Origin: Chlorobiaceae bacterium
GTDB lineage: Bacteria > Bacteroidota > Ignavibacteria > UBA10030 > SZUA-254
Length of the DNA stretch: 59,805 bases
Reading direction: 5' to 3'
Assembly (NCBI GenBank): GCA_013824245.1
Contig: PNNN01000064.1
Coordinates: forward strand, 1 to 59,805
How positions within the stretch are numbered: the first letter of the stretch is position 1; each line of letters opens with the position of its first letter. The notes below the pieces were generated by a model. The model had not been told where the DNA came from. It saw only the letters and a program-made list of their open reading frames with translations, and ran no database searches. The translations under genes and the position numbers were made by a program. This document shows, in pieces, positions 1 through 19,000 of the stretch.

Positions 1-765
1 AAGTTCGATTTTGTTATGGCAAATCCACCGTTCAATGTTGACCGTGTGGATAAGGAGCGTATCAAGGATGATCCACGCTTCCCGTTTGGTATGCCGAAGA
101 CGGATAATGCAAACTACCTCTGGATACAGATATTCGCAAGTGCGCTCAACGAGAAGGGACGTGCAGGATTTGTAATGGCAAACTCTGCCGGCGATGCACG
201 CGCTTCTGAGCTTGAAATACGCAAGAAGCTGATTGAGTCTAAAGCTGTGGATGTTATTATTTCTATTGGCTCAAACTTTTTCTATACCGTTACGCTTCCT
301 TGTACGTTATGGTTTCTTGATAAAGGGAAGAAAAAAACAGACCGTAAGGATAAAGTTCTCTTCATAGATGCACGGCATATTTTTAGGCAGATAGACCGTG
401 CGCACCGCGATTTTACGCCTGAGCAGATTGAGTTTATTGCAAACATTGTACGGTTGTTTCGTGGCGAAAAGCCAGAGTTCATGAGCGATAGCGAAAAGAT
501 GTTAAAGGAGAAATTCTCAAACGGCAAATATATTGATGTGGCAGGATTGTGTAAAGTTGCGACAATAAAAGAGATTGAAGCGCAGGGATGGAGTTTAAAT
601 CCCGGACGCTATGTTGGTGTAACTGAGCGAGCAGCTGATGATTTTGATTTCAAGGAAAAGTTAGAAGAACTAAATGAAGAATTAGAAGTACTGAATGTTG
701 AAGCGAGAGAGTTTGAAGAGCGGATTGCGACAAATGTAATCAAGCTATTGGAAAACGAGAGTTGA
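1..765 (+). CDS. hsdM: Type I restriction-modification DNA methyltransferase subunit (HsdM), C-terminal part
   Basis: The reading frame is open from the first base, so the gene begins upstream of the window and only its last 254 codons are here. HsdM is the adenine-N6 methyltransferase subunit, which with HsdS methylates the recognition site. The catalytic motif IV of N6-adenine methylases, NPPF, stands at visible residues 8-11, followed by the FPFG and NANYLWIQ stretches usual in HsdM. The C-terminal helical tail (from about residue 205) is rich in Glu, Leu and Lys and looks like the coiled coil that contacts HsdS. The stop codon overlaps the hsdS start (TGATG), so the two are translationally coupled. 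The family call is firm; the SAM-binding motif I lies outside the window. Confidence 0.95.
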
Positions 766-2018
766 TGAAGAACGGTTGGCAAAAATTACAGTTGAGTGAA
801 TGCCTACAATTCATTTCAAGAGGGAAAGCTCCTAAGTATGTTCCCACAAGTTCAGTCGCAGCTCTGAACCAAAAAGCTATCAGATGGGATTATATAGAAA
901 CCCAATATTTAAAATATCACGATCCAGATGTAAAAATTAGAGAGGATATTTTTATTCGAAAAGGTGATATTGTTGTAAATTCAACAGGCGACATTACAAT
1001 CGGTCGAGCTTATTACTTTAAAAAGGAATGGCCAAAGCTCTTTGTAGATTCTCACGTAACGATTCTAAGATTGAGAAAGGATATTCTATTACCAGAGTTT
1101 TTGATATACTTATTCCCCCTACCAGAATATCAGAAACAAATTTATAGCCTGGTAACCGGTGCAACTGGGCAATTAGAGTTATCAAAAAGCAATCTCTCAA
1201 AACTTGAAGTAATAGTTCCTCCCATACCAACCCAGCGCAAAATCGCATTAATCCTCTTCGCCTACGACGACCTGATTGAGAACAACACACGTCGCATAAA
1301 GATACTCGAAGAAATGGCGCAGACGATTTACAGGGAATGGTTTGTGGAGTTCCGTGCGCTGGGTGTTGAGCTACGCAAAGCAACACCGGAAGAAAAGAAG
1401 CTGACAGGCAAGGATGTGTTTCCGAAGGGGTGGGATGTCAAATCAGTAGTAGATGCAGTTTTTGTTTGTCCAAAAACTACGGTTCCCAAAGATGGACTGA
1501 AGCCATTCGTACCCATGGCAAGCCTTACAGATAATTCAATGTTGATAAATGATATTCAGTTTAAAGAAGGTAATGGTGGTTCAAAGTTTAAGAATGGAGA
1601 TACACTATTTGCACGCATAACGCCATGTCTGGAGAATGGAAAGACTGGTTTCGTTCAGTTCTTGAAATCAGATAGTGAGGTTGCATTTGGTTCAACCGAG
1701 TTCATGGTTTTAAGATCAAGAACCCTTACACCTGAATACGTATACTTAATGGCACGTTCCAACGAATTTAGGGATAACGCAATAAAGAGTATGTCAGGTG
1801 CTACAGGTCGACAGCGAGTGCAAGAAGATTGTTTTCAAAAATTCTTCATTGCGCAACCCGATAATAATACATTGCAACAATTCAGTGATTTAATTCAGCC
1901 AATATTCAGGATGATATATTCGCTCTCGACAAAGAACAATAATCTTCGCCGTACACGTAACCTGCTGCTGCCGAAGCTGATTAGCGGTGAAATAGAACTC
2001 ACACTGGAGACTACATGA
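765..2018 (+). CDS. hsdS: Type I restriction-modification specificity subunit (HsdS)
   Basis: This is the DNA-recognition subunit, with two target-recognition domains each followed by a conserved helix. TRD1 spans about residues 1-150, the first conserved region (PPIPTQRKIA then the YREWFVEF stretch) about 150-215, TRD2 about 220-385, and the closing conserved helix with RRTRNLLLPKLISGE ends the protein. I place the start at the ATG at 765, which overlaps the hsdM stop; a TTG one codon upstream is possible but needless. Length (417 aa) is normal for a two-TRD HsdS. The stop codon overlaps the next start (ATGA at 2015). The closing motif occurs again about 1.4 kb downstream at the end of a chimeric ORF, so this 3' end may be a recombination product. 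Confidence 0.93.
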   Translation: MKNGWQKLQLSECLQFISRGKAPKYVPTSSVAALNQKAIRWDYIETQYLKYHDPDVKIREDIFIRKGDIVVNSTGDITIGRAYYFKKEWPKLFVDSHVTILRLRKDILLPEFLIYLFPLPEYQKQIYSLVTGATGQLELSKSNLSKLEVIVPPIPTQRKIALILFAYDDLIENNTRRIKILEEMAQTIYREWFVEFRALGVELRKATPEEKKLTGKDVFPKGWDVKSVVDAVFVCPKTTVPKDGLKPFVPMASLTDNSMLINDIQFKEGNGGSKFKNGDTLFARITPCLENGKTGFVQFLKSDSEVAFGSTEFMVLRSRTLTPEYVYLMARSNEFRDNAIKSMSGATGRQRVQEDCFQKFFIAQPDNNTLQQFSDLIQPIFRMIYSLSTKNNNLRRTRNLLLPKLISGEIELTLETT

Positions 2019-3319
2019 ATAAATTAGTTGAAACTGGATCCGACGGATGTCGCAAACAACCAACACAAGAGGAAGTGCTCTCGCCTGGCTATACAAAGAT
2101 GCTCGATCTGCAAAAGCAACTTGGATCTCACTCGGGCGAGGGGCGTCACTTATTGGTGTTCCTTGATGGGACATGGAATGAAGATCGCACGCCGATCGGC
2201 GAAGCAACACCGACAAACGTGCTTCGCATGTTTCATGAAATCGATAAAAAGCCGAACCCGGGGAAACAGCCGCACATCATCGCACGATATTATCGCGGAG
2301 TTGGGAACCGTCAGGATAACAAGTACTTAAATCGATTGTGGTATGGGTTTAACGGAGAAGATGAGCAGCGGATACGCCAAGCTGCGTTCGCCGGGCTCTA
2401 CAGTGATTATAAATCTGTCAATGATGTCATTTACATTATTGGTTTTAGCCGTGGCGCAGCGAGCGCACGCCTCTTGGCAAGAGATTTATGCAAAGATGGG
2501 TTTCCACCGAATTTGGAAGTGGAGACACGCCATTACCCAAATTTCCTTACAGGCCAGATCGAAGCGCGCATCGTGTGGGTCAGACGACATAACGAGTGTG
2601 CAGACAAAACCGTTTTCCCAAAAGTAAAGTTCCTCGGTTGTTGGGATACCGTCGATGCGTTTGTTCTCCCGTCTCGCTTTCCTGCAGATGATTCAAAAGA
2701 TAAGGTCGCGAGGTGGTTTAAAAATATTGCTCCTCGTCTTCTCGGAAAGGAACGGTTTCGGGGCGATGAAAATCAGATCCCACAGAAGGTCGAACAGGCG
2801 GTACACTGTGTGGCGATCGATGAAACGAGAAACGCTTTTCTTCCAACATTGATGCCTGCTGCTAAGAATGTTGAAGAAGTGTGGTTTCCCGGCGTTCACT
2901 CCGACGTGGGAGGCGGATATGGTGATAATAAGCTTGCCGGTGAGGCGTATGACTTCATGAGAGTGTTTTTGGAAAAGGAGTCTAAAAAGGAAAATCAAAT
3001 AGATCCTATTTCTTTCAATTCTAAGGGTAAGAACTCGGAATCGTACTGTTTTCATTATCATGGTTTAAATACCGGCATGGAACGTACCAAAGAGTTTTTC
3101 GGCTTCGGGACAAACATGCGCAAGATTAGAGTTCTTAACGGTGCGCCGGGAGCTAAACCCAAGATTCATTCGTCAATCTTTACGGTAATAGGGAACGGCA
3201 ATGTGTTTGCAGCAAACAAAAAGAACAAACGCACATGGCGAGTGACCTATGACCCATACAACTTTCGAGAATTTAATGATGGTTTTGAGATTGTCGATAC
3301 GGAGCGGCGTGATTTATGA
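2015..3319 (+). CDS. DUF2235 / Tle1-like alpha/beta-hydrolase embedded in the RM operon
   Basis: This 434-residue protein carries the DUF2235 fold known from Tle1-type phospholipase effectors and many uncharacterised hydrolases. LVFLDGTWNE near residue 50 opens the fold. The nucleophile elbow GFSRGA puts the catalytic Ser at 145, CWDTVDAF puts the acid Asp at 211, and FPGVHSDVGGGY puts His at 295, so the triad looks intact. There is no signal peptide or membrane segment, so it is probably cytoplasmic. It starts inside the hsdS stop codon and its own stop overlaps the next start (ATGA at 3316). Bases 2161-2220 are 55% GC by count, higher than the AT-rich genes just downstream, which suggests a separate origin. 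A nuclease-linked lipase acting in phage defence is an inference; the substrate is unknown. Confidence 0.85.
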   Translation: MNKLVETGSDGCRKQPTQEEVLSPGYTKMLDLQKQLGSHSGEGRHLLVFLDGTWNEDRTPIGEATPTNVLRMFHEIDKKPNPGKQPHIIARYYRGVGNRQDNKYLNRLWYGFNGEDEQRIRQAAFAGLYSDYKSVNDVIYIIGFSRGAASARLLARDLCKDGFPPNLEVETRHYPNFLTGQIEARIVWVRRHNECADKTVFPKVKFLGCWDTVDAFVLPSRFPADDSKDKVARWFKNIAPRLLGKERFRGDENQIPQKVEQAVHCVAIDETRNAFLPTLMPAAKNVEEVWFPGVHSDVGGGYGDNKLAGEAYDFMRVFLEKESKKENQIDPISFNSKGKNSESYCFHYHGLNTGMERTKEFFGFGTNMRKIRVLNGAPGAKPKIHSSIFTVIGNGNVFAANKKNKRTWRVTYDPYNFREFNDGFEIVDTERRDL

Positions 3320-3492
3320 ACCCTCACGTCTACTTCAAAGACCATCTTGTTGGACGGCCAGCCATCAGGTTCCTCGCGGAGCGTGCTTGTGCTAAAATTC
3401 AAACTTTCCGCCGCACACGCGACCTGCTGCTGCCGAAGCTGATAAGCGGTGAGGTGGGTGTGGAAGAAATGGAAATAAATTTTAAGGAATAA
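3316..3492 (+). pseudogene. 58-codon chimeric ORF: unknown N-terminus joined to a second HsdS C-terminal tail
   Basis: An open frame begins with an ATG that overlaps the DUF2235 stop and ends at TAA 3490-3492. Its first 26 or so residues (beginning MNPHVYFKDHLVGRP) resemble nothing I recognise. From about residue 27 it becomes FRRTRDLLLPKLISGEV, a near copy of the last conserved helix of hsdS, and then ends with an acidic tail typical of complete HsdS proteins. The DNA is also nearly identical to the hsdS 3' end at about 1948-2000, including a run of over twenty identical bases. The simplest reading is that the original hsdS end lies here and that a recombination at this motif put the hydrolase gene upstream of it. 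The N-terminal part may be the remnant of another cargo gene. A functional peptide is not excluded. Confidence 0.75.
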
Positions 3493-3497
3493 ACATT

Positions 3498-3947
3498 ATG
3501 GCAGAAATAAATCTGACACAAGCAGAAGCAGATAGACTAATCGCAATCCAAAAAATAAAAGTAAGCGATACACCGTGGGAATATCCTGTTCAAGGATCCG
3601 GCATTTCAATTCCTTTAGTGTCAATAGATAAGAAGGAGAATTTTTTACTAGACATCAGTAGAGGGAGAATTGATTTAATTAAAGGTAGGTACCAAACACG
3701 TGCAAGACAAGTTGTAATACTAGTGCGGATAGATTTTGGCGGGGCACCTCATAGAAATCCTGATGGGAAAGAAGTGGCAAGCCCACATCTTCATGTCTAT
3801 CGCGAAGGCTATGGGGATAAGTGGGCAACTTTGATTCCAAAAGATTTATTTAAAAATATTTCTGATCGATCACAATTGCTTGAAGATTTCATGGAATATT
3901 GCAATATTATACAAAGACCCAATATTGTGCATGGACTATTTATATGA
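3498..3947 (+). CDS. Hypothetical protein, DUF6978-like
   Basis: This 149-residue soluble protein has no signal peptide or membrane helix. From memory it resembles the DUF6978 family: an N-terminal helix ([14 protein letters not shown]), a short beta-rich core with a DISRGRIDL stretch, and a conserved [14 protein letters not shown] segment near residue 100. It lies 5 bp after the chimeric HsdS-tail ORF. Its stop codon overlaps the next start (ATGA at 3944), so it should be expressed together with the DUF1828-like partner. The gene is visibly more AT-rich than the hydrolase gene before it. The two-gene arrangement resembles a small toxin-antitoxin or defence accessory pair, but nothing in the sequence assigns a biochemical role. 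Confidence 0.75.
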
Positions 3948-4711
3948 TAGTTGAAGAAATACAGAATTTATTAGACAAATACCTAGATTGGCTACGTGAT
4001 AAAACTACTCTACGTCAACTCGATGATTGGGTGGAAATCACTACCCCATATATAGATAGACATAATGATTATCTGCAGATATATGCTACTAGAAAAAATG
4101 GAAATTATATTCTAACAGATGATGGATATATTTTGCAAGATTTGGAACAATCGGGATGTGCAATTGAAAGTCCCAAACGCCAGGATCTGCTAAAAATGAC
4201 TTTGAATGGGTTTGGCGTACAATTACAAGGTAAAAAATTAGAAATTCATGCATCTGCAGAAAACTTTTCTTTGAAAAAACATAATCTTGTTCAGGCTATG
4301 CTTGCAATTAATGATTTGTTTTACCTCGCTGTTCCGATGGTAGCAAGTATATTCTTCGAAGACGTTGTACAATGGCTAGAACTTAATGAGATTCGGTATA
4401 CACCGAAGGTAAAATTTACAGGCAAAACTGGTTACGATCATCTTTTTGATTTTGTCATTCCAAAATCGAGAAAGAAACCGGAACGAATTATACAGACAAT
4501 AACAAGACCAAATCGAGATACAGCTATGGGAGTAGCATTTGCATGGGTCGACACGAGGGAGGTTAGACCATCTGATTCGAAAGCGTATGCTTTCTTAAAT
4601 GATACAGAACATACGGTACAAGCAGGAGTGCTTGATGCACTTCGCAGTTATGATGTTAGTCCGATTGTTTGGAGTAAGCGAGAAGAATTACGTGAAGAAT
4701 TTTCTGCTTGA
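3944..4711 (+). CDS. DUF1828/DUF1829 domain protein
   Basis: This is a 255-residue soluble protein. The N-terminal half (about residues 25-110, with [16 protein letters not shown] and [10 protein letters not shown]) matches what I remember of DUF1828, and the C-terminal half (about 150-240, with [17 protein letters not shown] and ending near SPIVWSKRE) matches DUF1829. I start it at the ATG overlapping the previous stop (ATGA), which is 15 codons inside the longest open frame. Bases 3961-4020 are only 33% GC by count, lower than the hsdM and hydrolase genes. No catalytic motif is obvious, though the FDF...RPNR...AFAW pattern in the second half could be a degenerate nuclease-like core (speculative). 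With its overlapping partner it forms a two-gene module lodged between hsdS and hsdR. Confidence 0.78.
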
Positions 4712-4777
4712 CAATTATTGATAAATAGCCTTCCATGAAGATATTTAATAGTAAGTGTGTAATGGATGGAATATAAA

Positions 4778-4806
4778 AATAAAAAAGGCCGACGTGACCG
4801 ACGGCC
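4778..4806 (-). terminator. Rho-independent terminator facing the minus strand
   Basis: Read on the minus strand, a strong stem (GGCCG paired with CGGCC, with two further pairs inside around one T-T mismatch and a 4-base loop, 4787-4806) is followed by a run of T broken by one A. On the plus strand the T-run is missing, so it does not terminate the cargo genes. No minus-strand gene that would need it is evident. Confidence 0.55.
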
Positions 4807-4814
4807 CAACTCCT

Positions 4815-4829
4815 TCTGCCATGGGCAGA
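4815..4829. repeat. Short inverted repeat upstream of hsdR
   Basis: Arms of 6 bp (TCTGCC / GGCAGA) flank the trinucleotide ATG, 33 bp before the hsdR start. It could be an operator or the stem of a short RNA; the evidence does not separate these. Confidence 0.35.
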
Positions 4830-4862
4830 TGAACTGGTATTAATATAACGATTAAACATTTA

Positions 4863-7800
4863 ATGTCAAACTTTACCGAAAATAAATTGGTTGAAGCGCC
4901 AGCAATTGCGCTTTTTGATGAAATTAGGTGGAAAACTGGTGATTATTTTTTCGAGGCTTTTGGACCTAATGGTACTCTTGGTCGTGAAACTCCATCAGAA
5001 GTTGTTTTGGTCTCACGTCTACGTCCTGCTTTACAAAAACTCAATCGCGAATTATCATCCGAAGCTATTCAACTTGCCATCGAAGAACTCACAAAAGATA
5101 AAAGCTCACTCAATCCTGTAAACGCCAACCGTGAAATTTACAAGTTACTCAAAGATGGCGTTCCAGTAACTGTGAGAAACCAGAAAGGTGAGGAGGTCCA
5201 AGAACGTGTCCGTGTAATAGAATGGGATAATCCGAAAGAGAATGATTACTTCCTTGCCTCACAGTTCTGGGTTACAGGCGATATGTACAAACGCCGTGCG
5301 GATCTCATCGGTTTTGTGAATGGTTTACCTATTGTATTTATCGAATTAAAAGCGATGCACAAGCGTTTAGAGAATGCATTTTACGGTAATCTAACAGACT
5401 ACAAGGATACAATTCCACAGCTATTCTGGTATAACGGTTTCATCATACTTTCAAACGGAAGCGAAAGCAAAATTGGAACAATCAGTTCTCAGTGGGAACA
5501 TTTTGCAGACTGGAAAAAGATCAACAACGAAGGTGAAGAAGGAGTTATATCACTTGAGACTATGATACGTGCTACGTGTGAGCCAAAGAGGTTGCTGGAT
5601 ATTGTAGAAAACTTCATTCTCTACAGCGATGAGAAGGGTGGTCTCGTTAAGATGGTTGCAAAAAACCATCAGCATCTTGGCGTAAATAGTGCATTCGAAG
5701 CAGTCAGGGAGATAAAGGATAATCGTGGTCGGTTAGGAGTTTTCTGGCACACACAAGGCAGCGGTAAAAGTTATTCAATGGTCTTTTTCGCTCAAAAGGT
5801 TATGCGTAAACTTCCGGGGAATTATACGTTCGTGGTTGTTACGGACCGTAATGAGCTTGACGGACAAATCTATAAGAACTTTGCTAATGCCGGAGTAATA
5901 ACGGAAGCTGAAGAACGCGTCAGAGCCGACAGCGGCGAACATCTGAAGCAATTACTCAAAGAAGATCATCGTTATCTCTTTACACTTATACAGAAGTTTC
6001 ATACCGATCCAGGTAAAACATATCCGATGATATCAGATCGTTCAGATATTATTGTTATTACAGACGAAGCACACCGCAGTCAGTATGATATAATGGCACT
6101 CAACATGAGGAATGCTTTACCTAATGCTGCCTTCATTGGTTTTACAGGTACACCTTTGATGATAGGTGAAGAGAGAACGAGGCAAGTATTTGGTGATTAC
6201 GTCAGTATATACAATTTCAAGCAATCAATAGATGATAAGGCGACTGTCCCGCTCTATTACGAAAACCGAATACCAGAACTGCAACTTACAAATAAAGAAT
6301 TAAATGAAGACATACAAAATGTCATCGAAGAAGCGATGCTCGATGAAGAGCAGGAGAAAAAGTTAGAGCGTGAGTTTTCCAGAGAATATCATCTTATTAC
6401 AAGGGATGACCGTTTAGAAAAGATAGGTGAAGATATCGTTGCACATTTTATGGGACGTGGTTATTCCGGTAAAGCGATGGTAATCTCAATCGATAAAGCA
6501 ACCGCAGTGAAGATGTACGATAAGGTTAAGAAATTCTGGGGAAAATATCTTGATGATTTGCGTGTGAAGTTAAATGCTGCCATAGATGATAAGCAGAAGG
6601 AAGAACTTCAGGAAAAGATTAGCTTCATGCAAGAGACTGATATGGCAGTTGTGGTCTCTCAGTCGCAGAATGAAATTCAGGAGTTCAGAGATAAGGGTTT
6701 GGATATTGCAACACACCGCAAGCAGATGGTAACAGAGGAGATGGATGTTAAGTTTAAAGATCCGAAAGATCCGTTCCGAATTGTATTTGTCTGTGCAATG
6801 TGGATGACAGGATTTGATGTGCCATCCTGCTCGACAATCTATCTCGATAAACCTATGAGAAATCATACACTGATGCAAACCATTGCCCGTGCGAACAGAG
6901 TTTACAAAGATAAGCTTATTGGTTTAATCGTTGATTATGTCGGCGTGTTCCGTAACTTACAGAAAGCACTTGCAATCTATGGTTCGGCTTCTGGTGGTGG
7001 TATATTACTGGGGGAATCGCCTGTTCAAGATAAACAAAAACTTGTTGAAGAACTCAGGATAGCGATTGAACTGATCGAGGATTACTGTGAAGAACGAAAG
7101 ATTGCTCTTGATAAAATCATTTCTGCTGATGCCTTCCCGAAGATAAAACTGATAGACGATGCTATTGATGCGATACTACAGAACGAGGAATCAAAGAAGA
7201 AATACATGTCTATGGCATTATCAATACAGTCTCTTTACAAAGCCATGTTGCCCGACCCTAAAGCTACGGAGTTCGTTGAGAAAGTTTTATTAATCGGAGT
7301 GATTGCGGAAAAGATACGCTCCTTAACACCTCCCGCTGATATTTCTCATGTTATGCAGGCGGTGGAAGCTGTATTGGATGGCTCAATAGCTGCCGAGGGA
7401 TATATCATACACGAGCAGGGTGAGTATGGCAAGAATGTTATTGATTTGTCTAAAATAGACTTCGAGGCACTGAAAGCTAAGTTTGAAAAATCGAAGAAAC
7501 ATATTGAAGTCGAGCGATTAAAAGGAGCAATCAATGCCCGGCTCCTGATGATGGTTCGGTTAAACAAAAGTCGGATGAATTACCTTGAGCAATTTCAGAA
7601 GATGATAGATGATTATAACTCCGGTTCGGCGAATGTCGAGCAGTTCTTCAATCAGCTAGTTGAATTCGCCAAAACATTAAATGAGGAAGAGCGTCGTGGT
7701 GTGGCTGAAGGTTTGAACGAAGAAGAACTTACATTATTTGATATTCTCACAAAACCAGACATGAATTTAACACAGGCTCAAGAGAAAGACATTAAAAAGG

Positions 7801-8027
7801 TAGCCAAAGAACTGATTGAGACGCTCAAACGTGAAAAACTCGTCCTTGACTGGAGAAAAAAACAGCAATCACGTGCAAATGTGAGAATTTGCATAGAAAA
7901 CATTTTGGATAAACTCCCACAGATTTATACAAAGGATATCTACTCCCAGAAATGCGATTATGTTTATCAGCATGTATATGATTCGTATTATGGGGAGGGG
8001 CGGAGTGTGTATTTATCGAAAACATAA
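4863..8027 (+). CDS. hsdR: Type I restriction enzyme translocase/endonuclease subunit (HsdR)
   Basis: This 1054-residue motor subunit translocates and cuts unmodified DNA in complex with HsdM and HsdS. The N-terminal PD-(D/E)xK nuclease core is visible as RRADLIGF (Asp147) and IVFIELKA (Glu161, Lys163). The SF2 helicase core follows: Walker A in TQGSGKS near residue 300, the DEAH box in ITDEAHRSQ near 400, FTGTPL near 425, and the C-terminal RecA lobe with MWMTGFDVPS and QTIARANR near residues 640-680. The acidic C-terminal region binds the methylase core. Length is normal and all key residues appear intact. Unusually, about 2.8 kb of cargo separates it from hsdS. No strong ribosome-binding site precedes the ATG. 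Confidence 0.96.
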   Translation: MSNFTENKLVEAPAIALFDEIRWKTGDYFFEAFGPNGTLGRETPSEVVLVSRLRPALQKLNRELSSEAIQLAIEELTKDKSSLNPVNANREIYKLLKDGVPVTVRNQKGEEVQERVRVIEWDNPKENDYFLASQFWVTGDMYKRRADLIGFVNGLPIVFIELKAMHKRLENAFYGNLTDYKDTIPQLFWYNGFIILSNGSESKIGTISSQWEHFADWKKINNEGEEGVISLETMIRATCEPKRLLDIVENFILYSDEKGGLVKMVAKNHQHLGVNSAFEAVREIKDNRGRLGVFWHTQGSGKSYSMVFFAQKVMRKLPGNYTFVVVTDRNELDGQIYKNFANAGVITEAEERVRADSGEHLKQLLKEDHRYLFTLIQKFHTDPGKTYPMISDRSDIIVITDEAHRSQYDIMALNMRNALPNAAFIGFTGTPLMIGEERTRQVFGDYVSIYNFKQSIDDKATVPLYYENRIPELQLTNKELNEDIQNVIEEAMLDEEQEKKLEREFSREYHLITRDDRLEKIGEDIVAHFMGRGYSGKAMVISIDKATAVKMYDKVKKFWGKYLDDLRVKLNAAIDDKQKEELQEKISFMQETDMAVVVSQSQNEIQEFRDKGLDIATHRKQMVTEEMDVKFKDPKDPFRIVFVCAMWMTGFDVPSCSTIYLDKPMRNHTLMQTIARANRVYKDKLIGLIVDYVGVFRNLQKALAIYGSASGGGILLGESPVQDKQKLVEELRIAIELIEDYCEERKIALDKIISADAFPKIKLIDDAIDAILQNEESKKKYMSMALSIQSLYKAMLPDPKATEFVEKVLLIGVIAEKIRSLTPPADISHVMQAVEAVLDGSIAAEGYIIHEQGEYGKNVIDLSKIDFEALKAKFEKSKKHIEVERLKGAINARLLMMVRLNKSRMNYLEQFQKMIDDYNSGSANVEQFFNQLVEFAKTLNEEERRGVAEGLNEEELTLFDILTKPDMNLTQAQEKDIKKVAKELIETLKREKLVLDWRKKQQSRANVRICIENILDKLPQIYTKDIYSQKCDYVYQHVYDSYYGEGRSVYLSKT

Positions 8028-8048
8028 ATTTAAAATCAAAGGATAATT

Positions 8049-8237
8049 ATGAACGAAGAACAAAAACAAAGCGCGCAACCGGTAATCGGTGAATTTAAAG
8101 GCAAACCGACTCTACGTATACCAATCGTCGACGATCCGTCGCCAGATACATCGTGGCATTGGTTTACATTTGGTAAAAGTAAAGCCAAAGCAATCGTGAA
8201 GTTTTATGATGCGATTAAGAAATTTGCGGAAGAATAA
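8049..8237 (+). CDS. Small conserved protein downstream of hsdR
   Basis: This 62-residue soluble protein starts 21 bp after hsdR with an AAAGGA ribosome-binding site 6 bases before the ATG. The core pattern, GKPTLRIPI followed by WHWFTFGKSKAKAIVK and a closing helix, resembles short proteins of the type 'FTFGLxKAKxIxENxDAIxKF' seen in many bacteria and annotated only as hypothetical. Such proteins may bind DNA or protein partners, but I know of no tested function. Its position makes it the last or next-to-last gene of the restriction operon. Confidence 0.75.
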   Translation: MNEEQKQSAQPVIGEFKGKPTLRIPIVDDPSPDTSWHWFTFGKSKAKAIVKFYDAIKKFAEE

Positions 8238-8254
8238 AAAAAAGGAGAAAAAAC

Positions 8255-8383
8255 ATGAGTAAAGGTCAGGACAGTCAGAAGACAACCAAGAAAGAACCCG
8301 TAAAAACCATGAAGGAAAAGAAAGCCGCGAAGAGAATCAAGAAAGAAGAAAAAAGAATTCATGGACTGCAATTGCCTGCATGA
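8255..8383 (+). CDS. 42-residue lysine-rich protein
   Basis: A strong AAAGGAGA ribosome-binding site lies 5-6 bases before the ATG, 17 bp after the preceding stop. The product begins MSKGQDSQKTTKKEP, is made up of about one-third Lys/Arg with almost no hydrophobic core until a short HGLQLPA tail, and is probably disordered. Small basic proteins that start MSKGKDSKKE occur in several phyla and are uncharacterised. A nucleic-acid-binding or ribosome-associated role would fit the charge but is inference. It is shorter than most gene finders accept. Confidence 0.7.
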   Translation: MSKGQDSQKTTKKEPVKTMKEKKAAKRIKKEEKRIHGLQLPA

Positions 8384-8682
8384 AATTGCGTTTTGTTAGA
8401 AACAGCATGGCATCGACTCCCGTGGAGTTCTCTTACGCGATGACGATAGGGATACGGGATCTCAAATAAATTTTAACTCATATGAACCGCATCTTCCTAT
8501 TGGCAGATGTGAAACCCCGATTATAAAATATTGGTGTTTGGTTTATTTATGTTATGATGCTGGTGAGGATATTAGGATAAGATTAGAATACCATGTATCT
8601 TAAATGTAAGAAATTCCTTATCGACTATTCTTTAAAAATATTTCAATATATGTTTAACAACTCAGAAATTCGAGGTTCATGA
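8384..8682. other. Intergenic stretch after the RM locus
   Basis: Nothing coding is convincing here. A short stem (ACTCC-CGT-GGAGT, 8416-8428) is present without a T-run. The rest is AT-rich. Confidence 0.4.
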
Positions 8683-10034: not shown

Positions 10035-13000
10035 CTACTTTATCATTATCATTTTCTTTGTTTGGAGAAGCGTTGCACCTTCAAGTAAGCGGTAGAAATA
10101 AACGCCCGATGAGGTAATCGATCCCGAAGCATCCGTTCCATCCCATAAGAATGTATGAGTCCCGGCTGTATATGTGCCTTCGGCAACTGTTTTTACAAGC
10201 TGTCCAATTGAATTATAAATGTTCAATTTTACGTTCGCATCGCGCGGAAGTTTTACGCTGATCGAGGTGGAACTGTTAAACGGATTCGGGAAGTTCTGGA
10301 GTAACTCAAATTCCTTTGGCAGAACTTTGTTGATCTCGTTATTCACATATTCTTCCGTTCCCACGATCATTTTAAATTGCATTTTATCTATGACATTTAC
10401 AAAAGAATAAGTTGCTTGCCTTCTTAAATCGAACGGTGCACTATTCAAGAGGTTGATTAAAACCACATGATAATTTGCAGGAATATTTTCGATTCCGTCG
10501 AACCGAATTTTGCCTGTGGATTTTCGTGGATTCGCAACTTCAAAATCCCATGTTTGTCCATCACCGATATCGGGCCTGAAATCTGAACTGAAGCGCTGGA
10601 ACGTTTCATCCCACGCGGGCCGTGGGAAATAGAGGAATCCCTGATCGAGGAAGAGAGGCGGTTTTCTTCCGTCCAACATATCCATACCTTGTTTTGCTGT
10701 TGGAGAGATGCCCAAGTAATTTTCTGCATCCTTGTTGATGTCGGATTCGTAATTTAATTTAACGCTCCAAAGCGTTGGAATAATTTTTGGCGTTAGATTT
10801 ATCTTGCCGAATGGATAAGGAACTTTCAACGCTGTAAGGTTCGAACTGTTGAAGAAATAATAACCCCTGAAAGGTTCTAATGCAAGTTTTTCAGCGTATG
10901 AGCCGGTGTATGAGTATAACTTCGTTGAAGCGGGCAGACTATTTGCATCAATAATTGTTTGCCATGCAACGTTTTTATCGAATGGATTACCGAGTATATT
11001 CCATCCGCCGTGGATTTGTATACTGTATGAAGCATCGGAACTAAGCGTTGGGGTTAACATATCGAATTGCGGTAAATAGAATTCGCCTTTCTTCAGTAAC
11101 CAATATCCTTCACCCGTTCGTAAATAAGAATTCGTCGATAATTCAATAAGATAATTCTCAGCGCTTCCGTTATCGGAGAACATTCTCCAGTCGATTCGCG
11201 GAACACCGAATGGATAAATACCCACCTTCAGTGTATCGACAATGCCCGGAACGCTGAACAAGCGATATTCGATTGAAGAAAGCGGTTCGGGTGCAAACGG
11301 AATGGTTGTAGACATTCGAACAGTTAAGGGCAGTCTCCCGGAAACGATGGAGAAGATATTGCTTTCTCCAACAATCTCGTTGTTAAGGATTGATTCCACT
11401 TTCAGTCGGCAACTGTCGATTGGATTTACTGCGAGAGTATCGGGCAGTATTACGGTTGTTTGACCATTATTGATTAAATTTTCTTTTATCAAGCGGAATG
11501 TTTTTCCGCTATCTATGGACAATTTGATATTGACGTTACCGCTTAATGTTGGACTGGTTGTCCATAAGATTGGATATGTAAAAGTAGTTGCCCAAGTATT
11601 GGGCGGGGTTACAACAGCAATCGTAGCGCCGACCGTTGTGAACCTTCTTGGATTTGAGAAGCGGCTTTCATCTATTCCCGATTTTACGCTGACACGCCAG
11701 AAATATAGACGGGCATTAGCAAGCGAAGATAATTGAACGGATGTATCGATAATACCGCGCTGATTCAAAATGAATTTTGTCGAGTCGGTAAAAGTAGAAT
11801 CGGAAGAAATCTGGACGTTATATGAATTTGCTCCGGGGTATAACATCCAACTGAGCATAGGTGAGGTAGAGATGTCTGATGCGCCATCAATAATTCCAGT
11901 CAGTATTGGAGGTGGAATGTAATGACTGAACATTGCTTGCTGTCTGAGCGGTTCATTCATAATAACCGCGGCAGGATTTACGCTTCCCGTGTATGAACCA
12001 TTCCCCGTTCCTAACCACTGATAGAATGCATAATCGATCGTTGGGGTTGCACTAATCGGCACGGTGTCTCCTTTACCAAACCAACCACTAATCGGATCAG
12101 CGGTGCCGCCGATATCTGCTACCATAGTCAGATAATACTGTGTATTAAATGTTGCCGTGTAAATTGTATCGGTTAATGGAGCAACATAATGAATTGTATC
12201 GCCGAAATCATTCCATTGTTTGAAGATGTAACGGATTCCATCAACATCAGATTGTGGTGTTAGTGCAGACAGGCGATGACTCGATCCGCGGAGCCAAGAT
12301 ATATTCTTGGGTGTTGTATAAGTGGAATCATCGACCATAATTTTTCTGCCGGTCGGAACAGTGGTTAGAGAAATCTGGACTGCTGAACCGAAATTGGCGG
12401 TAATGCTAATAGGTTCGGTAAAAACTATTTTTACAGGATTTTCGTTGCGTGAAATTCCACCACTCCATCCGGTGAAGACATAGCCGACTGCAGGTGTCGC
12501 GATCAACGTAACCGTATCTCCGATGAAATAATATTTTTTACCTGATGGATTTGTTGTTCCTGAATTGGCAGGAAAAACATTCATTGTGAGTGTGTATTGG
12601 GGGCTAAAGGATGCCGTAAAAACTGAATCGGTGGTTGGGAAAATAGTGTGCGCTTGTGAGCCACCATCGTTCCAGCTTGCCCATACCCACTGCTTGTCGG
12701 GAAGTGCATCAGGTTGCGGAGATGGAGCGCCGAGAGTTAATTGCGATCCCGGATCTACAAAACGTGTTTGTGTGGCGCTGTATGTTGATCCGTTGTAGAT
12801 GAATGATCTGCCCGGTGGATCTGTGCCAATTGTTATTTGAACAGGTTTGCGGGTAAAGTTTGCAGTTTCGGTTATAGGTGCATTCATTGTAACAGAAGAA
12901 GGATTGGTTGGTCCACTGTACGATCCGCTACCTGACCCTGCCCAAGTTGTAAAGTTATAACCGGTGATCGGGATGGCAGTTATTTGAACATTCTGAGAGC

Positions 13001-16000
13001 GGTTGAACCACCCACTTTGCGGTGTAACTGTGCCTCCAGTATTTGCATTCATCGTTAAATAATATTGAGTAACAAATATAGCGGTGAATGTGGTATCAGA
13101 TAGCGGAGTGATAGTATGACTTTTTGAACCGCTGTCGCTCCAAATATTCCATGTGTAGCGAATTCCTGTAGCGCCTTGTTGTGTATCTACAACACTGATA
13201 GTGTGAAGTGTGCCTGTTGCCCAATTAAATAGATGCGGGCTTTGGTAAAGTGTATCATCAACAACGATAGAAAGTCCTGCAGGCAATGTTGCAACATTAA
13301 TATTTGCAAGATACCGTTTAAATGATGCGGTCTCTGAAATTGGAGAGAACACTGAGATATTGACCGGATTCAGAGTATCGGAATAAGAACCATCACCTGT
13401 TCCAGTCCATCTATCAAACTGGTATCCAAGAGACGGTATCGCTCTAATCGATATTAACTTCCCGCTATCTTGCCAACTGCTCACCGGTGTTACAGAGCCG
13501 CCCGTTAATGCATTCATGGTTAAATAATATTGAGGTCGATAAAAAGCGATGAAAGTAGAATCTCGGGTGATTACAACTTGGTGACTCTTTGTTCTGCCAT
13601 CGCTCCAATTTGTATATAAATAACGAGTGTCAATTTTCGTGTTTTGAGTATCGACCGCGACTATGCTGTGAACTGAACCATAGGTCCACGAAAACGTTTG
13701 TGGTGATGTATACGGAAGATTATCGATGACTATCGAGAGACTATCAGGTACAGTTCGAACTATCACAGAGATCATATTGATTGCGAAGATAGCACGAATT
13801 GTGTGGTTCGCCGATAACTGAGTGAAAGTATAAGATGTATCTTTTCCGACATACAAACTATCTACCAAAACACTATCAACATGATAGTTGGTGCTTGGAC
13901 GGATTGAGTATCTTTGTGAACTGCCGTATGGCAATGTTATAGTCCCTGATGGAGAGATGGTGCCATTTACGCCAGCGGTGGCAGTTATCGTATAATTATT
14001 GATTATGAATGTAGCCGATATAGAATGATTCGCTCTTATATTTCTGAAGGTATAAGAGGGGATAGCTCCCACATTTATAGCATCGACCAAAACAGAAACT
14101 ATATGATAACCGGTATCGGGGAGAATTGATATGACTAAACTATCGTCATAGCTAACAATAGTTGAGCCAAGCGGACTCAATGTGCCGTTCAAACCACTTG
14201 CTGCAGTTATGGTGAATTTGTTTATAGAAAATGTTACACTGATAGTGTGAGGGATGATAATATTTGTAAAGGTGTAATTAGCCGGTGATCCTTGATAAAC
14301 TCCATCTACGAATACGCTGTCAATATGATAGCCGGTGTCGGGTAAAAATGTAAAAGTACGAATTGAACCATAGCTCACATTCACATCGCCGGATGGTGAT
14401 ATGGTGCCGTGCGTGCTTGAAGTTGCTGAAATGATTAATTGGTTTGGTGCAAACTTGGCAGATATAGTATGGTTCGATGTTACATTCTCGAATGAATAAT
14501 TAGATTGAGACCCTATGAAACTGCCATCTACAATAACGCTGTCGATATAATAACCTGTATCCGGGAGAATGGTAAATGCAATTGTTGATCCATAATCTAC
14601 TGATATTGGACCAGATGGATTTATTGAACCATGAAGTCCGGCAGATGCGGTGATGGTATAACCGGTGATTGTAAAGCTTGCAATAATCGAGTGTGGGGTT
14701 GTTACATTCGAGAAAGTATACGATGGTACTGCACCAACAGAGATCCCATCAACTACGACATCAGAAATATGATATATGGTGTCCGGTGTGATAGTAAACG
14801 ATTGACTAGTGCCATAAACTACTTTTACATCGCCGGAAGGTGTGATTGTACCGTGAAGTCCTGCGCTTGCAGTGACAATTATTGTATCAAGCGCGAACGA
14901 TGCAGTTTGAGTTATCGGACTGCCGATAGTGATTATGGTTGAATCAAGCGTGCCCGTATAAGAACCTGTCCCAGTTCCGGTCCATCCTTTAAAAATATAA
15001 CCCAAATTCGGCAGCGCTTTAATTAAAACAATGGCTCCACTATCTTTATAACCGGTTAAAGGCGAGACGGTTCCGCCTGAGCCCGCCATCATTGTTAATG
15101 AAAATTGAGTGGTGAAATTCGCTGTGAACGTTGTATCTGATACGGGGAAAATCGTATGCGTCGCGATTCCACCGTCACTCCAATTGTTCCATACATATTG
15201 AATTCCGGTTCCACCGGGTTGTGTTGTCGTTGCAATTCTAATGGTGTGGCTTGTTCCAGGTTGTTCTGTAAAAGTTTGTTTTACTAAATATGTTGTTCCG
15301 TCATAAACGAATGATCTGCCCGATGGATTTGTTTGAATAGTTACCGAAATAGGATTTCGCGTAAAGCTCGCCGTTTCTGTAATTGGGAGGTTTACTGTAA
15401 CGTTTGAGGGATTTGTTTTGCCGCTGTAACCACCGGTTGTTCCACTCCAGATATTGAAACTATAATCAACATTTGGTATAGCAGTGATTGCTACTATTTG
15501 ACCGTGGTTAAACCATCCGCTTGGTGGTGTGACTGTACCACCTTCATTTGCAACCATTGTTAGGTAATGTTGAGTGGCGAAGTTTGCAGTATAAGTTGTA
15601 TTTACCAATGGAGAAATTACGCTCATCAATGTGGTTGCATTTGTCCACGAATTCCAAACGTAACGTGTTCCGGTTGTTCCGGGTTGAATTGAGTCGGTGG
15701 AAATAACATGGCTTTCACCTGCTATCCAATTAAAAATTTGAGTTGTTGAATATGTGCTTCCATCTACTGTAAAATTCATTCCTATCAGATTGGATTGAAC
15801 CGTAACGGTAATATTATTTGGCGCGAATGAAACATCGATTGTATGATTGGCAGTAATATTCGTGAATGTGTACCTGTTCGAAGTATCGATCGAAACAGGA
15901 ACTCCATCTACATTTACAACATTTATATGATATCCGAGATCGGGAGTGATTAAGAATGAACTGCTTGATCCGTAAGTTGCCGAGACCGATCCGCTTGGCG

Positions 16001-19000
16001 AAATAGCTCCATGCAAACCTGCAGTTGCGTTTATTGTGAATGTGTTGATGCTAAACGATGCCGAAATTGTATGGTTGGTTCGAACATTCGTGAATGAATA
16101 TGATGTAGGCGCGCCGAACGAAATTCCGTCGACAAATAAATCAATAATATGGTATCCTATATCAGGCGTAATAGTAAAAGATTGATTCGATCCGAAAAGA
16201 ACCTTCACAATGCCTTGCGGGGAAATTGAACCGTGAGTTCCAGCCGTCGCTGTAATTATCAGGGTATCGATTGCAAACGATGCACTGATTGAATGATCAG
16301 ATATAATATTTGTGAATGTATAATTTGTTTGCGCGCCAATGGGGCTGCCATCCACAAGCACATTTACTATATGATAACCGGTATCGGGGGTGACAGTAAA
16401 AGATTGATTCATTGCGTAACCAACACGCACATTCCCGGATGGATAGATTTTTCCGTTTGTACCGGCAGAGGCAGTTATTGTTAGAGAATCGGGCACAAAC
16501 GAAACAGATATTGTATGATTCACGGTAACATTTGTAAATGTATATGATGTTGCTGAAGGATTTTGTACACCATCAATTGAATAATTTAATACATGATATC
16601 CCGCCGAAGGAATGAATGTAAAAGTTTGATTGCTTCCATAAAGCACTGGAACAGTTCCTGAAGGACTAATCGCACCGTTCGTTCCAGCCGAAGCGGTAAT
16701 AGTAAGTGTATCGATGGCGAAGGTAGCATTAATTGTATGGTTGTCCGTAACATTCGTGAATGTATAAGATGAAACTTTTCCAACAGTGATCGCATCAACC
16801 GATACATCAAAAATATGGTATCCGATATCAGGCGTTATATAAAATATTTGATTTGCTCCGTAATTTACATTTACAACTCCAGACGGTGTTATTGAGCCAT
16901 GAATACCGGCTGTTGCCGTAATAGTGTATTGACTTAGCGTGAATGAATTACTTGTAACCGGTGAGTATAATTGATGAGTTGCTTCCAAAGATTTAACCCC
17001 GGGTAGATCTATACTAAGATCACTAAAAATAGCATTCCCAGAAGAGTTGGTTGGTTGGCGCTTTGTTCCATTTAAAGTTCCGGTACCGGTTTTCTTAGAA
17101 ATCGTAATTGTATCTCCTAAAATTGGAATGGGATTCCCGGCAATATCCGTAATTTGAACTTTAATAGGTGGTGATATGAGGGCGCCTGCGATTCCGTCTG
17201 ACGGCTGTTGTAAGTAAACCAATTTTGATGGAACGCCTGCCAAGACTGTAATTGTACCTGAATTTACAGAAGTCAAGCCGATTTTTTCAGCATGGATTTG
17301 AGCCGTGCCTGTTAGCCGCGCTGTAAATGTTGCACAATTACATGCACTTGAATATGCGAAATCGGATTGCTTTATACTATCAGTAATAAATTGCAACGAC
17401 CACGTAGCAGTTGAATCGTTAGCAACAAAATTGTCATATTGATCTCTCTTAACTGAGTAAACAGTGAGAGTATTCCCGGAAATTATCGATTGAGCAGTAA
17501 CAACGCTCCCGTTTCCATCAGGCGCGCTTTCAACAATTATCTTTGTCGCTATTGCCGGTAGTATATTAAATGAGTTACTAACAATCGGAGTAAACAAAGT
17601 CCGGGTTGCAGTTATTTGTTTTGTCCCGGATTTTTGAATGCTGAGATCACTGAATGTTGCTGTACCGCTTGCGTCTGTAATGATGGATGTTGTCCCCATT
17701 AACGGTCCGGTCCCCGATGTCAATGTGAGTGTGATTGTTTCACCTGCTGTTGGGACGACATTATCGTAGCTGTCTCGTAATTGAACAGTAATTGCCGGAG
17801 AGATTGTTGAACCGGCATTGGTATTAGCGGGTGGTTGTTGTAGAAACGCAATTGCAACCGGTGTCCCTGCTGAAATTAAAAATGCATCGCTCACTGCCGG
17901 TATCAACGACCCGCTTTGTGCAGATAGATTTTTTATTCCGGTTTTATTGATTGAAAGATCGGTAAACGTTGCCAATCCGCTTGCATTAGTCAATTGCGTA
18001 AGTGTACCGCTTAGAATTCCCGTGCCTGAATTTAAACTGAGTGTCACCGCGACATTCGGCACCGAGACATTGTTTCCGATACTATCTTTAAGTTGAACCG
18101 TTACCGAAGGGCTGATAGCTGTTCCGGCTACTGTGGAGGTGGGTTGTTGAATAAAAGCTAAACGCTTAACATTACCTGCAACAACAGTGATCGTACCTGA
18201 TGATATAGGTGCTAAGACTCCTGACGTTGATTTAATATTAGCACTGCCTGCACCGTGTCCTGTAAATGTTGCCGCGCGATTACCATCGAAAGTTACAAGG
18301 TCGGTCCCGATAACACTGCCGGTAACATTATCAAGCGACCAAGAGCTGATTGAATTTGCAATGTAATTGTTATAAACGTCTCTAGTAATTGCATACGCAG
18401 TTAAAGAACTGCCGGAGATAATTGTCTGAGTCGGAATGATTACACCGCTGCCATCTGCCATAGTTTCGACTGATATTTTGCTCGCCGTCGCCGGTGATAT
18501 TATGAAAAATGAACTCACCGCGGTTGTAATTCCTGAGCTTGTTGCAGTGATCGCTTTTGTGCCAATCAGTTGAATACTCAAACCACTAAATGTTGCTAAT
18601 CCATTCACATCGGTTATACTGGTTTTAATTCCTCTTAGTGTATCTGTTCCGCTCGATACTTCAAGAGATACTGATACACCGGATGTGGTGACGTTATTTT
18701 CAAATTGGTCTTTTAGTTGAACCGTAACTGCCGGTGAAATCGATTCTCCGGCCACCGTATTGGTAGGTTGTTGTACGAAAACAAGATGATCGGGTGAGGC
18801 GGCAGTAATAGAAAATGAATTGCTGATGGCGCTTGTTAAACTGCCACTGGATGCGTTTATGTTTTTTGTTCCAACTATATCCATCCAAAGATCATTGAAC
18901 GATGCTGATCCGTTTGCATCGGTTGTTCGCGATTTTGTGCCGTTAAGTGTCCCGCTGCCGCTTGAGAGTGCAACTGTGATTACGATTCCGGATGCGGCTA

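Follow-up and report, generated by a model that had tools for sequence, protein, structure and literature searches.

Here, we have analysed a 59,805-nucleotide stretch of DNA from a Chlorobiaceae bacterium (contig PNNN01000064.1 of a 3.23-Mb genome assembled in 76 contigs, hereafter the window), whose bases 1-8027 hold a type I restriction-modification (RM) operon of the layout hsdM-hsdS-cargo-hsdR, with a gene for a Tle1-like (DUF2235) hydrolase between hsdS and hsdR. The hydrolase gene is followed at once by a 58-codon open reading frame (ORF) that reads as a recombination scar: it opens with 26 codons that form the start of an hsdR from another lineage and closes with 32 codons that form the tail of HsdS. 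From this fusion it follows that the hydrolase gene arrived with RM sequence behind it, and therefore that the donor had the order hsdS-hydrolase-hsdR and was ATGA-coupled in the same way. Judging from this junction, the hydrolase was already the cargo of another restriction operon before its arrival in the window. The operon, with the + strand used throughout, consists of the following features.

1-765, + strand: hsdM, 3' part only, cut by the contig edge (the contig begins at window base 1); PF02384, E 2.1e-42
762-2018, + strand: hsdS, 418 aa, start TTG at 762 or ATG at 765; PF01420, E 1.2e-20
1947-1990, + strand: tail 1, the conserved HsdS closing segment and a 44-nt direct repeat; from the repeat and the comparison of tails
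2015-3319, + strand: Tle1-like (DUF2235) Ser-Asp-His hydrolase, 434 aa; PF09994, E 1.8e-40, triad and fold
3316-3492, + strand: 58-codon ORF (58 aa), read as a foreign hsdR start fused to the native hsdS tail, a recombination scar
3316-3393, + strand: putative donor hsdR start within the 58-codon ORF; DNA match to hsdR 5' ends until about 3392
3394-3492, + strand: tail 2, the native HsdS tail with its stop; profile match at 3394-3471, and 3407-3488 aligned with the hsdS end of the relative G395
3498-3947, + strand: DUF6978 protein, PADLOC PDC-M24A; PF22398, E 1.1e-43, and PDC-M24A, E 1.4e-56
3944-4711, + strand: DUF1828/DUF1829 protein, PADLOC PDC-M24B, E 4.3e-108
4863-8027, + strand: hsdR, 1054 aa; TIGR00348, E 4e-152, and PF04313, E 2.3e-43

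That the 58-codon ORF ends in a second copy of the HsdS tail had been proposed in an earlier sequence-only reading of this DNA, and our results bear it out. Tails 1 and 2 (1947-1990 and 3409-3452) form a direct repeat of 44 nt at 91% identity, the longer of the two direct-repeat families in bases 1-8100. A hidden Markov model (HMM) built from 29 intact HsdS tails, with tail 2 left out, found tail 2 at E values of about 1e-13 to 2e-13, a level that speaks against a random ending; reversed-peptide decoys gave nothing below 0.01. The two tails agree at 40 of 45 core bases. Compared with the hsdS end of G395, a relative whose HsdR is 92% identical to that of the window, tail 2 agrees at 44 of 45 core bases (and over 82 bp at 92.7%, reaching the end of hsdS) and tail 1 at 39 of 45. 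Since tail 2 is the closer match of the two, we take it to be the native tail of the operon lineage. A recent target-site duplication was considered and ruled out, as there are 5 differences between the tails over the 45 core bases, and it is tail 2, not tail 1, that the nearest relative resembles.

The first part of the ORF, whose origin the earlier reading had not recognised, aligns with the HsdR starts of three operons, L230, L228 and L044, which are the best donors. With L230, 12 of 22 residues are identical and M1 falls on M1; at the DNA level, 63 nt match the hsdR of L228 at 71% until about position 3392, directly abutting tail 2. We ranked 2,921 ORF starts from 53 operon sequences by their match to 44 HsdR starts. 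On average, 43 of them match as well, namely the 58-codon ORF and 42 starts of hsdR, with two relics among the latter (L041 at 10497 and L228 at 4727); none of the 2,878 other ORF starts, and none of 3,000 shuffles, scored as well as the 58-codon ORF. The window's own HsdR ranks only 31st of the 44 as a match, which argues that the ORF start was not copied from the local hsdR.

The coupling of the hydrolase gene had also been noticed earlier and was confirmed on both sides. ATGA overlaps join hsdS to an intact hydrolase gene at 2015 and the hydrolase stop to the 58-codon ORF at 3316, and a third joins the DUF6978 and DUF1828 genes at 3944; a gap of 5 nt separates the stop of the 58-codon ORF from the DUF6978 start. 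The DUF6978 and DUF1828/1829 genes sit between the 58-codon ORF and hsdR, and their side-by-side products each match their own model of PDC-M24, a candidate defence system in PADLOC. Lying between hsdS and hsdR, co-oriented and coupled, the hydrolase gene is thus embedded in the operon. Promoter and terminator scans gave matches at chance level only.

By sequence, catalytic triad and fold, the hydrolase belongs to the Tle1-like family. Its match to PF09994 scores 139.5 bits against a cut-off of 27, and neither of our two alignments (21 and 38 sequences) shows any variation at Ser145, Asp211 or His295. The AlphaFold2 model from the 38-sequence alignment has a mean pLDDT of 71.7, and its top Foldseek match in the Protein Data Bank (PDB) is 4o5p (E 1.3e-10), titled as uncharacterized there, which we take to be the Tle1 effector PA3290. 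When VIA-align was applied to the Foldseek list, 4o5p scored a Z of 22.6 (257 aligned, rmsd 5.1), followed by TleB (9j3f) at 21.1, a Tle1 of the type VI secretion system (T6SS) at 19.7 and 19.5, and a Legionella protein without known function (4m0m) at 18.7; general alpha/beta hydrolases scored at most 13.9. The modelled fold and the triad would suggest that the protein cleaves lipids. By eye, its N-terminus reads as hydrophilic.

Comparison of orthologous RM loci, proposed earlier as a check on the capture, shows that the hydrolase is missing from the two nearest relatives, G395 and G414 (HsdR 92% and 86% identical), neither of which has a hydrolase match at E<=1e-10. Both carry other cargo in the hsdS-hsdR slot: a DUF3800 protein and its partner (PDC-M04A/B) in G395, and a GajB-like UvrD helicase, a 23S-IVP-type ORF and DarT-DarG (DarTG) in G414, whose slot reads tail-cargo-tail-cargo-tail. 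In the latter locus (L042:4521-8558), the stretch ..RPAPSRWDESPFGNGTRV.. is present twice, inside HsdS and just past the first tail stub, and resembles a small dispersed repeat. In G172, the one same-genus genome compared, window positions 8037-8384, just past hsdR, are conserved at 85%, and those from 9443 onward at 80%; there is no HsdR match at E<=1e-50 in this genome, and other island-like ORFs (integrase-like and methylase-like by reading of the ORFs) replace the operon. Hydrolase matches were found in 4 of 98 genomes of the bacterium's own order, its own included, with the locus of G442 outside the comparison. For the nearest homologue found (43% identity, L067, an Opitutales metagenome-assembled genome), a search of its phylum matched 1 of 194 genomes, namely that of the homologue itself.

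Similar scars recur in other operons. We ran the HMM of 29 intact tails in six frames over 53 sequences (the first 8.1 kb of the window and 52 loci, some without hsdS or hsdR, with L242-L249, L251 and L254 outside the scan), 670,146 bases in all, of which the hsdS-hsdR intervals make up 115,879. Seven extra tails outside complete hsdS genes were found (E<1e-3) in 6 of the 53 sequences: one in the window, two in G414 (L042) and one each in L232, L238, L240 and L278. All seven lie upstream of hsdR and on the strand of the operon, the contig of L278 ending short of hsdS. Counted by sequence, a tail stub is present in five of the 38 with an interval of at least 500 bp. In six of the seven cases the stub stop lies -4 to +5 nt from the start of the next gene; for the first stub of L042 the distance is 47 nt. 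The count excludes the second half of a split hsdS, in L227, and weak stubs in L228 and L280 (tblastn E of 4e-4 and 2e-3); E values of this order are noise, as a tblastn match outside the interval in L295 (3.4e-4) shows. L240 has a layout like that of the window with other newest cargo, that is, hsdS, a 275-aa gene, a 107-aa HsdS C-terminal relic, DUF6978 and DUF1828. Relics of hsdR starts also occur before a full hsdR: at L041:10497-10799, a 100-aa ORF just upstream of hsdR matches HsdR residues 1-64 at 59%, and further relics lie at 4727-4846 of L228 in operon orientation (E 6e-9) and at L252:11605-11682 (E 2e-8).

The cargo of the slot has modest support for being enriched in defence genes. 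We collected 58 non-redundant slot proteins of at least 120 aa, eight of which come from the window, G395 or G414; seven of these eight match PADLOC models, the exception being the hydrolase. Thirty slot proteins were then taken from the other 50 in list order with some skipped, rather than drawn at random, and compared with a random sample of 20 from the 155 ORFs upstream of hsdM. PADLOC matches (E<=1e-10) were found for 19 of the 30 slot proteins and 5 of the 20 control ORFs (Fisher p = 0.010); the 19 include a few that match broad domains only, such as L221 with pAgo, ORF calling was mechanical in both sets, and the region upstream of hsdM is rich in defence genes as well. In other genomes, PDC-M24 genes are found next to or within type I RM operons (L240, L241, L255 and L286), and other copies adjoin methylase-like or helicase-like ORFs or stand alone.

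As judged from residue identities over its parts, hsdS is a mosaic too: its central region shares 51 of 75 residues with G395 and 50 of 75 with G414, the best of seven compared, and its second recognition domain shares 104 of 160 with two operons of another lineage and 27 of 160 with G395. We argue that the interval between hsdS and hsdR serves as a slot whose cargo can be exchanged and is mostly related to defence, and that the PDC-M24 pair probably came straight after hsdS before the event. A donor block that began in hsdS, spanned the Tle1-like hydrolase and ended ~26 codons into the donor hsdR would then have landed at the 3' end of the resident hsdS, ahead of PDC-M24. The left join was most likely made by homology within hsdS. 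The right join, between the donor hsdR start and the final ~32 codons of the hsdS already in place, would be an illegitimate junction, and the native tail retained there, still coupled to PDC-M24, could pass ribosomes on to DUF6978. The hydrolase would most likely be an intracellular effector, co-made with HsdS, that attacks membrane lipids during infection, its presumed trigger, in parallel to restriction. We would give this explanation as a whole, from the slot and the landing of the block to the illegitimate right junction and the lipid-attacking effector, a probability of about 0.65. It keeps part of what the sequence-only reading had proposed, that the HsdS tail served as a seam by which a lipase was loaded into the RM operon. 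A seam at the hsdS end is consistent with the native tail 2, with relatives that lack the hydrolase and with the five other stub-bearing sequences; homology on both sides is not, as tail 2 is joined to a foreign hsdR start, and the lipase would have come as the cargo of an RM operon.

We would like to point out that several observations weigh against this explanation. The HsdR-start profile scores the 58-codon ORF weakly, at 4.4 bits, so that the case for the hsdR start rests on register, position and ranking. A start of hsdR precedes the tail in one of the seven stubs, that of the window alone, and the other stubs may therefore have formed by another route; none of the 12 plasmid operons examined (of 118 records) has a tail stub, and 10 of the 12 carry cargo. 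Scars thus appear recurrent but not universal, and their routes may differ. The left crossover lies in or before hsdS and is not pinned down, because tail 1 also resembles the tails of its own lineage (39/45 and 38/45) more than the other tails compared (at most 34/45). No PADLOC model matches the hydrolase (E<=0.1) or three of its relatives, no other RM operon with a hydrolase of the window's type in the slot was found, and the nearest homologue follows a symporter-like gene, by reading. RM genes resembling those of the window operon were found near none of 20 relatives from the same phylum, none of the best 80 of 529 genome relatives and one of 23 relatives on viral contigs; these zeros are soft, since the DUF2235 ORF went unrecovered by the ORF caller in 16 of 103 cases and many contigs are short. 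The 20 phylum relatives were taken from 21 other genomes with a hydrolase match, G033 being left out, and at least two of the 80 are the same loci as among the 20. The genome and viral-contig relatives came from the alignment query; the single-sequence hydrolase query gave none in either set.

The earlier reading had held that a hydrolase gene widespread away from RM genes would count against the capture. The family is indeed common without RM genes nearby, and its neighbourhoods indicate that it is not dedicated to RM operons and mostly not tied to defence; the capture in the window itself, as read from the scar, stands. No hydrolase match was found in phage records, and of 43 plasmid records with DUF2235, the 8 examined with 7-kb flanks have no annotated hsd gene. 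Two neighbourhoods nevertheless point towards defence. On the Emticicia oligotrophica plasmid pEMTOL01 (L310:1853-5032), a DUF2235 gene lies about 115 bp from the hsdM of a type I RM operon and is divergent from it. On the viral contig L168 (8629-11200), SLATT_4, a SMODS cyclase (PADLOC Cyclase, 5.9e-118) and a PF09994 hydrolase lie in one coupled run, with the hydrolase ATGA-coupled to the cyclase and a divergent type I RM operon adjoining. This run resembles a cassette of the cyclic-oligonucleotide-based antiphage signalling system (CBASS) with a Tle1-like protein as candidate effector; a viral relative 56% identical to this hydrolase has no cyclase. Taken together with the embedding in the operon, the cyclase-coupled relative makes a defence role of the window hydrolase plausible.

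With so many relatives outside RM loci, the hydrolase could also be a hitchhiker or a metabolic lipase without a role in defence. We consider this rather unlikely, though the most serious of the alternatives: the hydrolase would have been slot cargo in the donor too, the cargo of the slot is enriched in matches to defence models, the triad and the reading frame are intact, and one relative is coupled to a cyclase (L168). That the protein is a secreted Tle1 effector of a T6SS, present here by chance, is suggested by its family name and fold and is very improbable. The sheath family PF05591, the only T6SS component searched genome-wide, has no match in the bacterium's own genome, with the E. coli control positive, and no spike or tube family matches any of the seven proteins scanned in 1-8027.

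Two other routes to the second tail have to be weighed. The insert is bracketed by a direct repeat of the tail, G414 alternates tails and cargo, and the pneumococcal tvr locus is reported to excise circles at hsdS repeats (PMC6265443); a cassette of hydrolase plus hsdS tail might likewise have recombined by homology at the tail of hsdS and could excise again. However, tail 2 is preceded directly by a foreign hsdR start instead of hsdS sequence, the tails are only 40/45 alike and none of the seven proteins scanned in 1-8027 is a recombinase, which makes such a tail-to-tail exchange improbable. A shade less probable still is a tandem duplication of hsdS, with entry of the hydrolase between the copies and erosion of the second copy to its tail. 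Duplicated hsdS genes are known and L240 retains the longer, 107-aa HsdS relic, but an hsdR start that passes abruptly into an intact hsdS tail, itself still coupled, suits a crossover better than erosion. We therefore prefer the landing of a donor block with an illegitimate right junction.

It is tempting to extend this reading. Type I RM operons might trade defence cassettes as blocks comprising an hsdS end, cargo and an hsdR start. The scar of each landing would be an hsdR start or else an hsdS tail, the latter keeping the older cassette coupled. The order of arrival could then be read from hsdS to hsdR, so that in G414 the helicase would be the newest cargo and DarTG the oldest, and the newest layer of the window would be a Tle1-like phospholipase turned intracellular antiphage effector. 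We put this joint proposal, with the two kinds of scar as part of it, forward tentatively, at rather less than even odds.

The scar is a concrete and checkable mark for the entry of defence genes into a very common immune operon, and shows how bacteria may swap spare defence genes through one slot. If such scars are general, they could be used to find embedded cassettes and to order them in time. Moreover, Tle1-like lipases, known as secreted weapons, become candidates for effectors that act in defence inside the cell; the cyclase-coupled relative in L168 gives a second, independent hint of this.

Beyond the operon, the window holds a 3611-aa secreted-looking repeat protein with a sorting-like C-terminal segment at 10035-20870, adjoined by a smaller relative, and at 23464-46117 a large cluster of glycosyltransferase, GNAT-like and polysaccharide-export genes that, as read from the translations, is likely to serve exopolysaccharide synthesis.

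In the open-access literature, no paper that joins DUF2235 to a restriction operon was found by title or start of abstract among the matches listed, and none among those listed on HsdS-tail or HsdR-start scars beside cargo. By their titles, the papers listed for DUF2235 mostly concern the T6SS, and others polymorphic toxins, type IV secretion or effector-immunity pairs; many of those listed for truncated or duplicated hsdS concern phase-variable loci. The window hydrolase shares the fold of its catalytic domain and its sequence motifs with the Tle1 phospholipases 4o5p and TleB (9j3f); those are T6SS effectors, whereas no T6SS sheath gene was found in the genome of the window and the operon context differs. 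With the CBASS-like cassette of L168 it shares a PF09994 hydrolase within a defence context, at 27% identity between the two hydrolases; there the gene is coupled to a defence cyclase, whereas scans with Pfam and PADLOC models found no cyclase in the window operon, which thus lacks the cyclase-beside-effector arrangement of CBASS.

Homology-facilitated illegitimate recombination joins DNA by one homologous and one illegitimate junction. Such a process would explain both the homology on the left, in hsdS, and the join of hsdR start to hsdS tail on the right, with the left junction unlocated.

The pneumococcal tvr/SpnIV locus carries, between hsdM and hsdR, hsdS, toxin-antitoxin genes and a further part of hsdS, and direct repeats are reported to drive its rearrangement (PMC6265443). 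It has a recombinase and whole recognition-domain parts, whereas the window has a tail remnant fused to an hsdR start; neither a recombinase nor a second hsdS with recognition domains, as expected for shuffling of the ivr/tvr type, was found in 1-8027, the left side of the operon lying beyond the contig edge. For TgvAB of Vibrio cholerae and RloF of Campylobacter, too, defence genes lie between type I RM genes. TgvAB, inside the type I RM locus of VPI-2, is a modification-dependent restriction system and not a lipase and is reported to protect independently of the restriction activity of HsdR (PMC11411939). The same slot as in the window is used in the RRDM island of E. coli, where DarTG2 occupies the hsdS-hsdR interval and for which the authors suggest a recombination hotspot. 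Its cargo differs from that of the window and the accessible part of that report mentions no scar of hsdS or hsdR (PMC12255303), but G414, one of the two nearest relatives of the window operon, carries DarTG in this slot too.

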